From a virus: a DNA stretch of 38,269 bases. The DNA lies in the IMG/VR virus record IMGVR_UViG_3300010371_000070, positions 1 through 38,269 of that record; one strand, written 5' to 3'. This document shows positions 20,796 through 23,527 of the stretch, piece after piece. The position numbers and the translations under genes are program-made. How positions within the stretch are numbered: the first letter of the stretch is position 1; the number at the start of each line of letters is the position of its first letter. Under the pieces are notes generated by a model. That model saw nothing but the letters and a program-made list of their open reading frames with translations, ran no database searches and was not told where the DNA came from.

Positions 20796-21262
20796 GGCTC
20801 ATCTCGCTCTGTTTTAGAGAGCGCAAAAGGCATCGCCTTGTGATGCAAGGCGCGCGCATCCCACAGCGCGTTGTGCTGAACAGCACCCGGCAAATCAGTC
20901 GGGTAGGCGTCTATCCTCAATAGGTGAAATTGCAGCTTGGGAATTGCAACCATCTGTCCTGGTGCCGTGATCAGCGCCTTGCAAAAATAGCTGATATCGT
21001 CCGGCCAATCTGCGACGATCACAGGCATCGGGTCATCATACAGAAAACTAGCGATCCGCTGCCCGAACCGATCTTGGTTGATAAAAAATGGCGTCGCGTC
21101 GGCCAGCGAGATTATGGGCAGGACATTCTCTTTCACCCATAGGCACGGTTTCCAGCAGTCGGTCGCGATGTATAGCTCTCGCAAGCCACTTTCGCTGACC
21201 ATTGCAAGGCTGATGAGTTCGCCATTGAACCCGTTGAACTCAGTATCGAGAAAATACTTCAT
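20792..21262 (-). CDS. 3'-5' exonuclease, RNase T / DEDD fold
   Basis: 156 residues from ATG 21262, preceded by GGAGGAG and overlapping the methyltransferase stop (ATGA). The start MKYFLDTEFNGFNGELISLA carries the Asp-x-Glu of motif ExoI. A second Asp lies in VIVADWPDDISYF (~87-96), and HNALWDARAL near the end gives the His and final Asp of a DEDDh active site. Such enzymes trim DNA or RNA 3' ends. It is probably part of phage DNA metabolism; the family also includes proofreading domains, but there is no polymerase here. Confidence 0.82.
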   Translation of the reverse strand: MKYFLDTEFNGFNGELISLAMVSESGLRELYIATDCWKPCLWVKENVLPIISLADATPFFINQDRFGQRIASFLYDDPMPVIVADWPDDISYFCKALITAPGQMVAIPKLQFHLLRIDAYPTDLPGAVQHNALWDARALHHKAMPFALSKTERDEP

Positions 21263-22107
21263 TTCTCCTCCGGACACTGTGCTTGAGACAGTGTCATGAT
21301 TGCTCTCCCGATGATTTCCGGGATTTGCGGGACGACGGCGTTGCCGAGGGCGCGACATCGGTCCACCCGATCGGGAATCCCATCAGCTCCTCGACCCAGC
21401 ACGGGTTCAGAGGCAATTTTCCAACGTCGGTTCCCCTGAATGGATTTGTAGAGCCACCCCATTCGTCCAGTCTGGCCCCCCAATGATCGTTGCCGGCATT
21501 CGGTGTCGGGAGCATCTGGCGATGTAGCCATTCGGTAAGGCGTATCCCGCGCGAGCTTGCTTCCTGCCTGGTTTTCACTAGGCCGGCCGACATGCTCTCG
21601 CTCTTGAAATCCGTGGCGCTCGGCGTGGGCAATGATCCAGACGCGATCTCGTCTGTGAGGCGCACCAACGGCGGAAGCCGGTATGCAATGCCACTCTGCA
21701 TCGTACCCGAGCGCGGCCAAGTCTCCGAGAACACGGTCAAGCCCTCGATTAAGCAGTGCTGCGACGTTCTCCACGATGACGTATCTTGGTCGAACCTCGC
21801 CAATAATTCGGGCGTACTCAGACCATAGGCCGCTGCGCTCTCCATTGATGCCAGCGCCTTTTCCTGCAACGCTGATGTCCTGGCAGGGGAAGCCACCACA
21901 GATGACATCGGGAACAATTCCGTCTGCTCTAAGACGGTCAGAGGTAAGGGTTCGCACGTCGTCATAGATCGGGACGCCTGGCCAGTGCTTGGTGAGCACG
22001 GCTCGGCAGTATGGCTCGATCTCGCAGAACGCGACGGTTCGCATTCCTGCTCGCTCAAGTCCGAGGGAAAAGCCGCCGATGCCTGAGAAGAGGTCGAGGA
22101 CATTCAT
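21259..22107 (-). CDS. C5 cytosine DNA methyltransferase
   Basis: 282 residues with the ordered motifs of the family: motif I LDLFSGIGGFSLGL (4-17), motif IV GGFPCQDIS with catalytic Cys75, motif VI IVENV (111-115), motif VIII APHRRDRVWIIA (~149-160) and motif X ALGNAVVPQIPEIIGRAI near the end. The target-recognition part is short. It moves methyl groups from S-adenosylmethionine to cytosine, probably shielding phage DNA from host nucleases; no restriction partner is seen. ATG 22107 has GGAAGG three bases before it. A second frame on the same strand, offset by one base, covers nearly the whole gene (21294-22103) and also looks coding. Confidence 0.93.
   Translation of the reverse strand: MNVLDLFSGIGGFSLGLERAGMRTVAFCEIEPYCRAVLTKHWPGVPIYDDVRTLTSDRLRADGIVPDVICGGFPCQDISVAGKGAGINGERSGLWSEYARIIGEVRPRYVIVENVAALLNRGLDRVLGDLAALGYDAEWHCIPASAVGAPHRRDRVWIIAHAERHGFQEREHVGRPSENQAGSKLARDTPYRMATSPDAPDTECRQRSLGGQTGRMGWLYKSIQGNRRWKIASEPVLGRGADGIPDRVDRCRALGNAVVPQIPEIIGRAIMTLSQAQCPEEK
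21294..22103 (-). CDS. Overlapping ORF inside the methyltransferase gene, family-like protein
   Basis: 269 codons starting 4 bases inside the methyltransferase start (ATGAATG), in the +1 frame. From residue ~66 it reads like proteins I associate with phage methyltransferase loci: SPARTSALQEKALA, SWRTSQHCLIEGL, FSETWPRSGTMQSGIAYRLP (~125-144), two LPTP-x-A-x-x-D motifs (158-165 and 198-206), and LNPCWVEELMGFPIGWTD (232-249). Such order in a chance frame would be surprising. The first ~65 residues are Ser-rich and look like the shadow of motif I, so the true start may be an internal ATG at 21908. Its function is unknown; it may assist target recognition. Confidence 0.6.
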   Translation of the reverse strand: MSSTSSQASAAFPSDLSEQECEPSRSARSSHTAEPCSPSTGQASRSMTTCEPLPLTVLEQTELFPMSSVVASPARTSALQEKALASMESAAAYGLSTPELLARFDQDTSSWRTSQHCLIEGLTVFSETWPRSGTMQSGIAYRLPPLVRLTDEIASGSLPTPSATDFKSESMSAGLVKTRQEASSRGIRLTEWLHRQMLPTPNAGNDHWGARLDEWGGSTNPFRGTDVGKLPLNPCWVEELMGFPIGWTDVAPSATPSSRKSRKSSGEQS

Positions 22108-22121
22108 TTGCCTTCCGTGCG

Positions 22122-22367
22122 CTATGCCGGAGACAGTGAACGCTCGATCGCCATCAAGGCGCCGATTGCGTTGTTCATAGCCATGGCGACGAAATCGGCT
22201 TCGGCCTTGGCATTGTCGCAGGTGTCTTCCGATACGAAGCCAATCCGATGGTATGTTTTGCTGCCATAGTCCCAAAGTTCATAGACGATAATGCCGTCTT
22301 CACGGTCGTGGCGTTCGACCTTGATGGGGCCGGTAATCGATCTGGGCAGAGGAATTACTCGGGTCAC
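22122..22367 (-). CDS. Small protein (81 residues), unknown
   Basis: Start set at GTG 22367: GGGAGGAGTGAA precedes it and the GTGA overlaps the upstream stop; a longer frame from 22475 would run inside the neighbour. The protein begins with VTRVIPLPRSITGPIKVERH-type beta sequence, has YELWDYGSKTYHRIGFVSED in the middle and a helix (AEADFVAMAMNNAIGALMAI) at the end. No domain is recognised. It is followed 14 bases later by the methyltransferase. Confidence 0.65.
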   Translation of the reverse strand: MTRVIPLPRSITGPIKVERHDREDGIIVYELWDYGSKTYHRIGFVSEDTCDNAKAEADFVAMAMNNAIGALMAIERSLSPA

Positions 22368-23527
22368 TTCACTCCTCCCACACGATCGGTTTTCACTGGT
22401 GCCTGCTCCTGCGAAGATATCGCCGACGTCGGACAGCCCGACATGATGCTGTGCGGAAGCTTGCACTTCGGACAAAGCCTGTTTCCAAAACCATCGCGCT
22501 CCGGGCGCGTCAGTGAAGCGGCAATTCGTTCTGCCAATTCACGCGACAGTCGTTCCGCGCTTGCCTTGGTGTCGTCGTCATAAGTCCCATTGCACCAATC
22601 GTCTAAAATTCCAGCCAGGATAATTCCGTCGATATAGCCCACATCAAACGGCTTTAGCTGTTCTCGCGCTGCCTGCGGTTGAGCGCAGTCCTCGAAAGCG
22701 ACTTCGCGAGCCCGGCGCAGCATGAACTCAAGCGCGCCTTCTCCGTCATCAGGCCAGCCGAGAGACTTTGCCATCTGGAGAGCATGCACACCTGTCCGCG
22801 TCTCACGCGCTGCTTGCGGTAGAGCAACCGGCTGCGCGAGACTTCTGGCACTTAGGGCGTGATCGACCAATTCCTTTAGGTGACCGGTTAATGCGATCTC
22901 GCTGTCAATAGCCTCAAGTGCATCTAGCGTAGTGATGAGCCAGTATCTATCCGTCGCCGCTTGCGGTACATCGCGAGCGTACAACTTCTCCTGCAGAGCT
23001 TGACAGTCCTTTTTAAACTGCCGCGTGAATGGCGTTTCGTTTGATCGGATAAGCGCCGCTTGCGGTGCCGCATCATCGTTCAGCGCGTGATGCAGCGCGT
23101 GGGCGGCTTGGTTTAATTGTAGCGGCACGTACCCGCCGACCTCGCGCATCTTGATGGCTTCGATGCCTTTCTTAAGGTGCTCATGCGCCTCGGCGACCGC
23201 CTCGCGATCGACGCCAATCACCTGCGCGCCTTGGGCAGGAGCGCGCTTGTTCCAGCGATCGATATATTCGTCATCTTCCAGATCGATGCACGGACCGCTG
23301 GTGCCGCAATCATCGCACTGGACGACCTTCCAGCCATAACGATCGGTCGTTAAAGTAAGATCGTCGCTACCGCAAAATGGGCAAGGAAGAATATCGCTGT
23401 CAGGGGAGCATCGCGGCGTGGCGCGATAGGCTCCGCATTTCATGCAGCGCTGTTCTTTGCCATCTGTCTCAGGCCAGATTTTCCAGTCGTGATCGCATGC
23501 GCTGTTAGGCTGGGAGCGTTCGGTCAT
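22364..23527 (-). CDS. Lar-like zinc-ribbon protein, multi-segment
   Basis: 387 residues. The N-terminal ~95 hold two zinc ribbons: DWKIWPETDGKEQRCMKCGA, then LPCPFCGSDDLTL...CDDCG with the closing WNKRAP of Lar (restriction alleviation) proteins. A C-terminal ribbon (RLCPKCKLPHSIMSGCP) sits near 355. In between are helical segments separated by a recurring PQAA tetrapeptide (about residues 154, 187, 236, 283) encoded by near-identical DNA. Lar of Rac prophage modifies type I restriction; whether this long protein does so is open. It overlaps both neighbours by 4 bases. Confidence 0.72.
   Translation of the reverse strand: MTERSQPNSACDHDWKIWPETDGKEQRCMKCGAYRATPRCSPDSDILPCPFCGSDDLTLTTDRYGWKVVQCDDCGTSGPCIDLEDDEYIDRWNKRAPAQGAQVIGVDREAVAEAHEHLKKGIEAIKMREVGGYVPLQLNQAAHALHHALNDDAAPQAALIRSNETPFTRQFKKDCQALQEKLYARDVPQAATDRYWLITTLDALEAIDSEIALTGHLKELVDHALSARSLAQPVALPQAARETRTGVHALQMAKSLGWPDDGEGALEFMLRRAREVAFEDCAQPQAAREQLKPFDVGYIDGIILAGILDDWCNGTYDDDTKASAERLSRELAERIAASLTRPERDGFGNRLCPKCKLPHSIMSGCPTSAISSQEQAPVKTDRVGGVK

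Follow-up and report, generated by a model that had tools for sequence, protein, structure and literature searches.

A C5-cytosine DNA methyltransferase gene on the minus strand of a virus record carries, within its conserved core, a second protein-coding frame that has been selected as a protein in its own right. The whole record of 38,269 bases is referred to as the window, and all coordinates are window positions. We regard it as virtually certain that the locus is dual coding. The best explanation, and one that we consider quite probable, is that the second-frame protein (beta) supplies motif IX as one subunit of a two-part enzyme, the other being the product of the methyltransferase frame (alpha). 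Long same-strand dual-coding genes in bacteria and phages are usually written off as annotation noise. The case presented here is backed by a strong null test on 90 homologues, by a homologous nested gene in 72 enzymes of Firmicutes phages and by matches in 80 further genome loci.

The methyltransferase frame and its neighbourhood

21259–22107, minus strand: alpha, C5-cytosine DNA methyltransferase, 282 aa (PF00145 and PHROG 363)
21325–21351, minus strand: alpha motif X, ALGNAVVPQ (reading of the frame and M.HhaI alignment)
21259–21262, minus strand: ATGA overlap of the alpha stop and the start of the next gene, preceded by GGAGGAG
22364–23527, minus strand: Lar-like restriction-alleviation protein (PF14354, 8.5e-10), close to alpha on its upstream side and in the same direction

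Alpha runs from the ATG at 22107 to the TGA at 21259-21261. Profile searches matched it to PF00145 (1.6e-45, residues 2-167) and PHROG 363 (8.6e-90), and motifs I, IV (PCQ), VI (ENV), VIII and X can be read in one frame, the overall set being I-VIII and X. The profile alignment with M.HhaI spans 12-181 of the latter (motifs I-VIII), plus a weak match at 294-318 (motif X), and contains no alpha counterpart of M.HhaI 182-293, which comprises the target-recognition region and motif IX. In the AF2 model (the sequences for these models were taken from loci other than phage records), residues 1-166 and about 254-277 are folded and residues 167-253 are disordered; the best Foldseek matches of the folded part are M.HaeIII and M.HhaI. 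By its motifs, its alignment with M.HhaI and its fold match, alpha belongs to the PF00145-type C5-cytosine methyltransferases. A sequence-only reading that preceded this analysis had credited the frame with the complete C5 motif set; this holds for motifs I-VIII and X, including ALGNAVVPQ, but according to the M.HhaI alignment motif IX is absent. A single-chain enzyme would have motif IX and the small domain in one chain; because alpha has no counterpart of 182-293 and is disordered over residues 167-253, it is not an enzyme of that kind.

The gene following alpha is RNase H-like (PHROG 2259). The ATGA overlap suggests that the two genes are translationally coupled, and the longer start listed for the RNase H-like gene, at 21358, is probably wrong. 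Beyond the Lar-like gene lie a gene without an assigned function and then an exonuclease VIII-like gene, and an integrase is located further downstream of alpha.

A second frame within the methyltransferase gene

21294–22103, minus strand: beta, second-frame ORF of up to 269 aa, +1 relative to alpha (PHROG 1008)
21699–21722, minus strand: conserved TWPRSGTM in the N-terminal half of beta (conservation; the nested gene of Firmicutes phages has a homologous segment, hhalign 98.7%)
21621–21632, minus strand: first LPTP of beta (conservation; LPTP in frame in single-chain mycobacteriophage enzymes)
21501–21512, minus strand: second LPTP of beta (conservation; in-frame counterparts in single-chain enzymes)

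Both frames described by the sequence-only reading are present, and both lie on the minus strand (alpha at 21259-22107, the second frame at 21294-22103). The SWRTSQ, WPRSGTM and two LPTP motifs that it listed all occur in the second frame, and its hand translation of the same DNA into EPVLGRGADGIPDRVD and LNPCWVEELMGFPIGW is correct. Beta belongs to PHROG 1008 (3.3e-27, residues 63-258 on profile positions 35-287 of 329). Part of the family resemblance that the reading saw by eye is an image of the enzyme frame. Profile searches gave no Pfam, NCBIfam or PADLOC match for beta, and PDB sequence searches with the nested protein, in both its window and Firmicutes types, returned nothing meaningful. 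AlphaFold modelled beta alone with low confidence (pLDDT 60, pTM 0.30), which fits a subunit that might need its partner to fold.

Using tblastn, relatives of beta were detected in 126 phage records and 6 plasmids; 80 genome loci that were fetched have relatives as well. In a set of 16 fetched loci, every match occupied the same position within a methyltransferase, in its +1 frame. The earlier reading had asked for independent homologues outside overlapping loci. Homologue searches in which loci were checked for frame found no copy of the whole of beta outside such loci; only its C-terminal part, with the LPTP segments and motif IX, was found elsewhere, in frame inside single-chain methyltransferases.

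In the records of Vibrio and Pseudomonas phages (L008:2294-2992, L009:2291-3019), the second frame alone is annotated, as 'hypothetical protein', and the methyltransferase frame is missed. In mycobacteriophage Jinglebell (L004:2440-3145), both frames are broken by a frame change at one point, and the record annotates two minus-strand hypothetical genes instead.

Both frames are under selection as proteins

21364–21924, minus strand: dual-coding core, alpha residues 62-248, with the second frame maintained open (stop depletion and conservation)

The beta motifs are frame-shifted images of enzyme motifs (TWPRSGTMQSG corresponds to DLAALGYDAEW, and MGFPIGWTD to DGIPDRVDR), so that motif matches by themselves are no proof and a null model is needed. 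Synonymous codons were therefore shuffled within each gene of 90 distinct enzyme homologues, keeping both protein and codon usage. Over alpha residues 60-249, 10 second-frame stops were observed against about 328 expected, whereas before residue 50 and after residue 250 stops in the same homologues were at or above expectation. The second frame is open throughout residues 62-248 in 84 of the 90 homologues, and three of the six exceptions have their stop at residue 240.

The second frame is also conserved far beyond what the enzyme frame imposes. The total BLOSUM similarity of second frames between distant pairs was 111,098, against -3,550 (s.d. 1,381) in the null, so that the observed conservation lies at least 80 s.d. 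above it. Conservation peaks at residues 106-165, 196-210 and 226-255, the last reaching about 2.4 per site compared with -0.1 to 0.2 in the null; across much of the core, the codon-shuffled null alone yields 20-29% second-frame identity. In the reciprocal test, in which the second-frame codons were shuffled, alpha was conserved beyond the image of beta in every 15-residue bin of 61-255. Together, the conservation above the null and the reciprocal test show that both frames are selected as proteins, and selection in the second frame, which the earlier reading had also asked for, was thus found. That reading's figure of about 600 bp of dual coding agrees with the sharp-bordered stop depletion, with conservation beyond the null in both frames and with the internal Shine-Dalgarno-preceded starts in the family, which support an extent of about 560-600 bp.

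Second-frame stops were not depleted in flanking genes (n = 265, stop ratio 1.01) or in F1-type mycobacteriophage enzymes (n = 23, 58 stops against 61 expected). A survey of 63 PF00145 genes, mostly from Gammaproteobacteria and Bacilli, revealed two classes, consisting of about 50 canonical enzymes without a nested frame and 11 with one; seven of these 11 are in genomes already known for a second-frame match. Streptococcus-phage enzymes were dropped as a negative control because they carry a nested gene themselves.

Motif IX is located in beta

21357–21410, minus strand: beta LNPCWVEELMGFPIGWTD, assigned as methyltransferase motif IX (conservation; in-frame relatives; M.HhaI alignment)

Over the 90 loci, this segment has the consensus LNPxWVEWLMGFPxGW, with columns that are mostly 76-94% conserved. 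It is found in frame in the single-chain relatives L162 (iE 6e-11) and L154 (2e-7), and two mycobacteriophage loci, L178 and L179, have motif IX and the LPTP region in frame (about 4e-9 and 3e-9). L162 encodes a complete chain, with motif IX followed by motif X, and this chain aligns with M.HhaI motif IX, LHPRECARVMGYPDSY, collinearly before motif X; the M.HhaI motif IX segment is weak alone (i-E 390) and was counted through its collinearity with the strong first domain. The in-frame counterparts in single chains and the collinear M.HhaI alignment indicate that beta carries motif IX: judged by its sequence, LNPxWVEWLMGFPxGW of the second frame is the motif IX that is absent from alpha. The proposal in the earlier reading that the second protein may act with the enzyme gains support from this distribution, by analogy with M.EcoHK31I (PMC3404938).

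At L162:3793-4782, motif IX is in frame and the beta frame is interrupted by a stop, as expected if fusion removed the need for a nested frame; the locus is a possible fusion intermediate. In mycobacteriophage BabyBack (L180:2444-3677), gp83 stops after motif VIII and gp82 consists of the beta-like region and motif IX. The coding region of gp82 seems to begin upstream of its annotated start, inside gp83 in the +1 frame.

Candidate starts of beta

22101–22103, minus strand: candidate start of beta, an ATG that lies 4 nt after that of alpha (ATGAATG); both have the same GGAAGG (22111-22116) upstream
21963–21965, minus strand: alternative internal beta start ATG at alpha residue 48, giving 223 aa; same region as the Shine-Dalgarno-preceded Firmicutes start

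The start codon of beta varies between homologues. Where there is an overlapping ATG, 17 of 22 loci are free of second-frame stops up to residue 50 (9.0 expected), compared with 18 of 61 loci without one (19.7 expected); the window belongs to the former, the ATG2 group. Shine-Dalgarno sequences are enriched before the window-type ATG48 and ATG49 (z 3.2 and 3.6), and no enrichment was found before ATG62 and ATG67. In the window itself, no Shine-Dalgarno 4-mer match precedes ATG48 (21965). The ATGs at 22103 and 21965 are the candidate starts.

The nested gene in complete enzymes of Firmicutes phages

The Streptococcus-phage enzymes each consist of one complete chain, in which motifs IX (RKLTPRECWRLQGFPDWAF) and X are in frame. 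In a set of 72 Firmicutes-phage enzymes, the +1 frame nevertheless has only 10 stops over the shared core, against 411 expected, and there is no depletion beyond the core. The nested gene of this set starts with ATG in 62 of the 72 enzymes (42.6 expected), and 60 of these 62 ATGs are preceded by a Shine-Dalgarno match (41.6 expected, z 5.2). At the Streptococcus-phage loci (L184-L263, for example L184:1152-1571), the nested +1 gene is stop-free and has its own start and Shine-Dalgarno site.

The Firmicutes nested ORF matches PHROG 16143 (5.6e-52), and its product has a conserved end, LSDILEExVPEKYFLS, for which no in-frame case was found among the sampled canonical enzymes; PADLOC gave a weak match (E 0.0099). 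The Firmicutes and window types of the nested protein are related (hhalign 98.7%, E 3.3e-16), and the similarity of nested frames across the two sets exceeds the codon-shuffle null at residues 45-90 and 105-149. The gene also occurs in clostridial, lactobacillar and gut phages, in every case nested, and the partial matches in Blautia, Evtepia, Lactobacillus, Clostridioides and Streptococcus phages are all nested in the +1 frame.

As far as can be read from these sequences, the nested gene therefore has a longer history and a wider distribution than its motif IX role. Since it is kept in complete enzymes with their own motif IX, supplying this motif cannot be its sole role family-wide, and in Firmicutes phages the nested protein probably has a further role. 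We lean towards the view that the nested +1 gene is an old, separately selected family, present across phyla and with a function beyond motif IX, and that split enzymes of the EcoHK31I kind are one lineage in which the nested protein took over this motif.

Discussion

In the model that we favour, one stretch of DNA would encode a two-subunit C5-cytosine methyltransferase. Alpha, in frame 0, would be the catalytic subunit and contribute motifs I-VIII and X. Beta, in frame +1, would have a translation start separate from that of alpha, at the ATG 4 nt further on or at an internal one near alpha residue 48. The part of the small domain that is missing from alpha, including motif IX, would come from the C-terminal half of beta, and beta would join alpha to form the active enzyme, with which the phage would methylate its own DNA against host restriction. 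We infer that the window phage translates beta and that this protein binds alpha and is required for activity; the gene neighbourhood suggests the anti-restriction role.

Beta might instead be a nested protein in its own right, such as a regulator or an accessory factor, that is selected for other reasons and gained motif IX later in one lineage. The homologous nested gene without motif IX in complete Firmicutes-phage enzymes, with its stop depletion and its hhalign match, speaks for this explanation. However, window-type beta has motif IX and alpha has none, so that beta probably serves, among other things at least, to complete alpha, and we consider the alternative unlikely. Programmed frameshifting, which would join the N-terminal part of alpha to the C-terminal part of beta in a single chain containing motif IX, would account for a kept-open zone that starts only after about residue 55 and for starts that differ among homologues. 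It would not account for the enrichment of Shine-Dalgarno-preceded starts at the right place, both in Firmicutes phages and at ATG48/49, nor for the second-frame conservation of residues 60-165, which a late frameshift does not need, and is improbable.

More doubtful still is that the second frame is only the image of a conserved enzyme, left open over such a length by codon bias. Its motifs do mirror those of the enzyme exactly, each homologue lies over an enzyme frame, and the null alone produces appreciable second-frame identity. Nevertheless, the codon-shuffle nulls, which keep protein and codon usage, lead us to reject it, given the near absence of stops between sharp borders, the excess conservation, and the lack of depletion in flanking genes, most canonical C5 methyltransferases and the 23 mycobacteriophage enzymes; it could be rescued only by an unmodelled coding-like constraint on one frame. 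A selfish alternate-frame insertion like ShiLan has a published precedent in a phage methylase (PMC11855218) but is scarcely credible here, as there is no insertion or boundary, the overlap coincides with motifs IV-VIII of the conserved core, and Pfam gives neither an HNH nor any other match for beta.

The dual coding has practical consequences. The arrangement is kept in very different phages and bacteria, and annotation almost everywhere shows a single gene. Many phage methyltransferase annotations thus describe one of two proteins, sometimes the wrong one, as in the Vibrio and Pseudomonas phages, and codon-optimised or single-frame constructs of such enzymes may be inactive. The results also raise the question of what the nested protein does in complete enzymes with their own motif IX.

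Comparison with known systems

In M.EcoHK31I, the small subunit is reportedly encoded within the large-subunit gene in another frame, as Lee, Kam and Shaw are said to have described in 1995. The larger polypeptide of this enzyme, whose target is YGGCCR (Lee, Kam and Shaw 1995, pmid 7870574, cited in PMC3404938), has motifs I-VIII and X, and the smaller one has only motif IX (PMC3404938). In enzymes of this kind, methylation in vitro requires both polypeptides. The window locus shows the same motif division over two polypeptides, with a large subunit without motif IX and a small subunit with it, nested in the other frame. M.EcoHK31I is an E. coli restriction-modification enzyme, whereas that of the window is a phage enzyme without an identified restriction partner, and none of the plasmid matches is labelled EaeI or EcoHK31I. 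M.AquI (CYCGRG) is also a C5 methyltransferase in two polypeptides, but its small subunit contains part of the variable region and motifs IX-X (PMC3404938), while in the window beta has motif IX and alpha motif X; gp83/gp82 of BabyBack resembles the M.AquI arrangement.

PHROG 1008 and PHROG 16143, both labelled 'DNA methyltransferase', are themselves second-frame proteins; the label appears to come from the locus, and in neither case is the nested protein the catalytic enzyme. The ShiLan domain of an F1 mycobacteriophage methylase (PMC11855218) has a hidden frame that codes for an HNH endonuclease, which is like beta in being an alternate-frame protein in a phage methylase gene. The ShiLan domain is, however, a mobile HNH-encoding insertion, and the window locus is not of this type, since beta overlaps the conserved core motifs of the enzyme and has no HNH match.

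Our literature search found no paper on nested genes in phage C5 methyltransferases. The motif division is already known from M.EcoHK31I, whereas the literature searched describes neither the wide distribution of the nested gene nor its occurrence in complete enzymes. By its motif division and nesting, rather than by sequence kinship or target, the alpha/beta pair resembles a two-subunit M.EcoHK31I-type enzyme.
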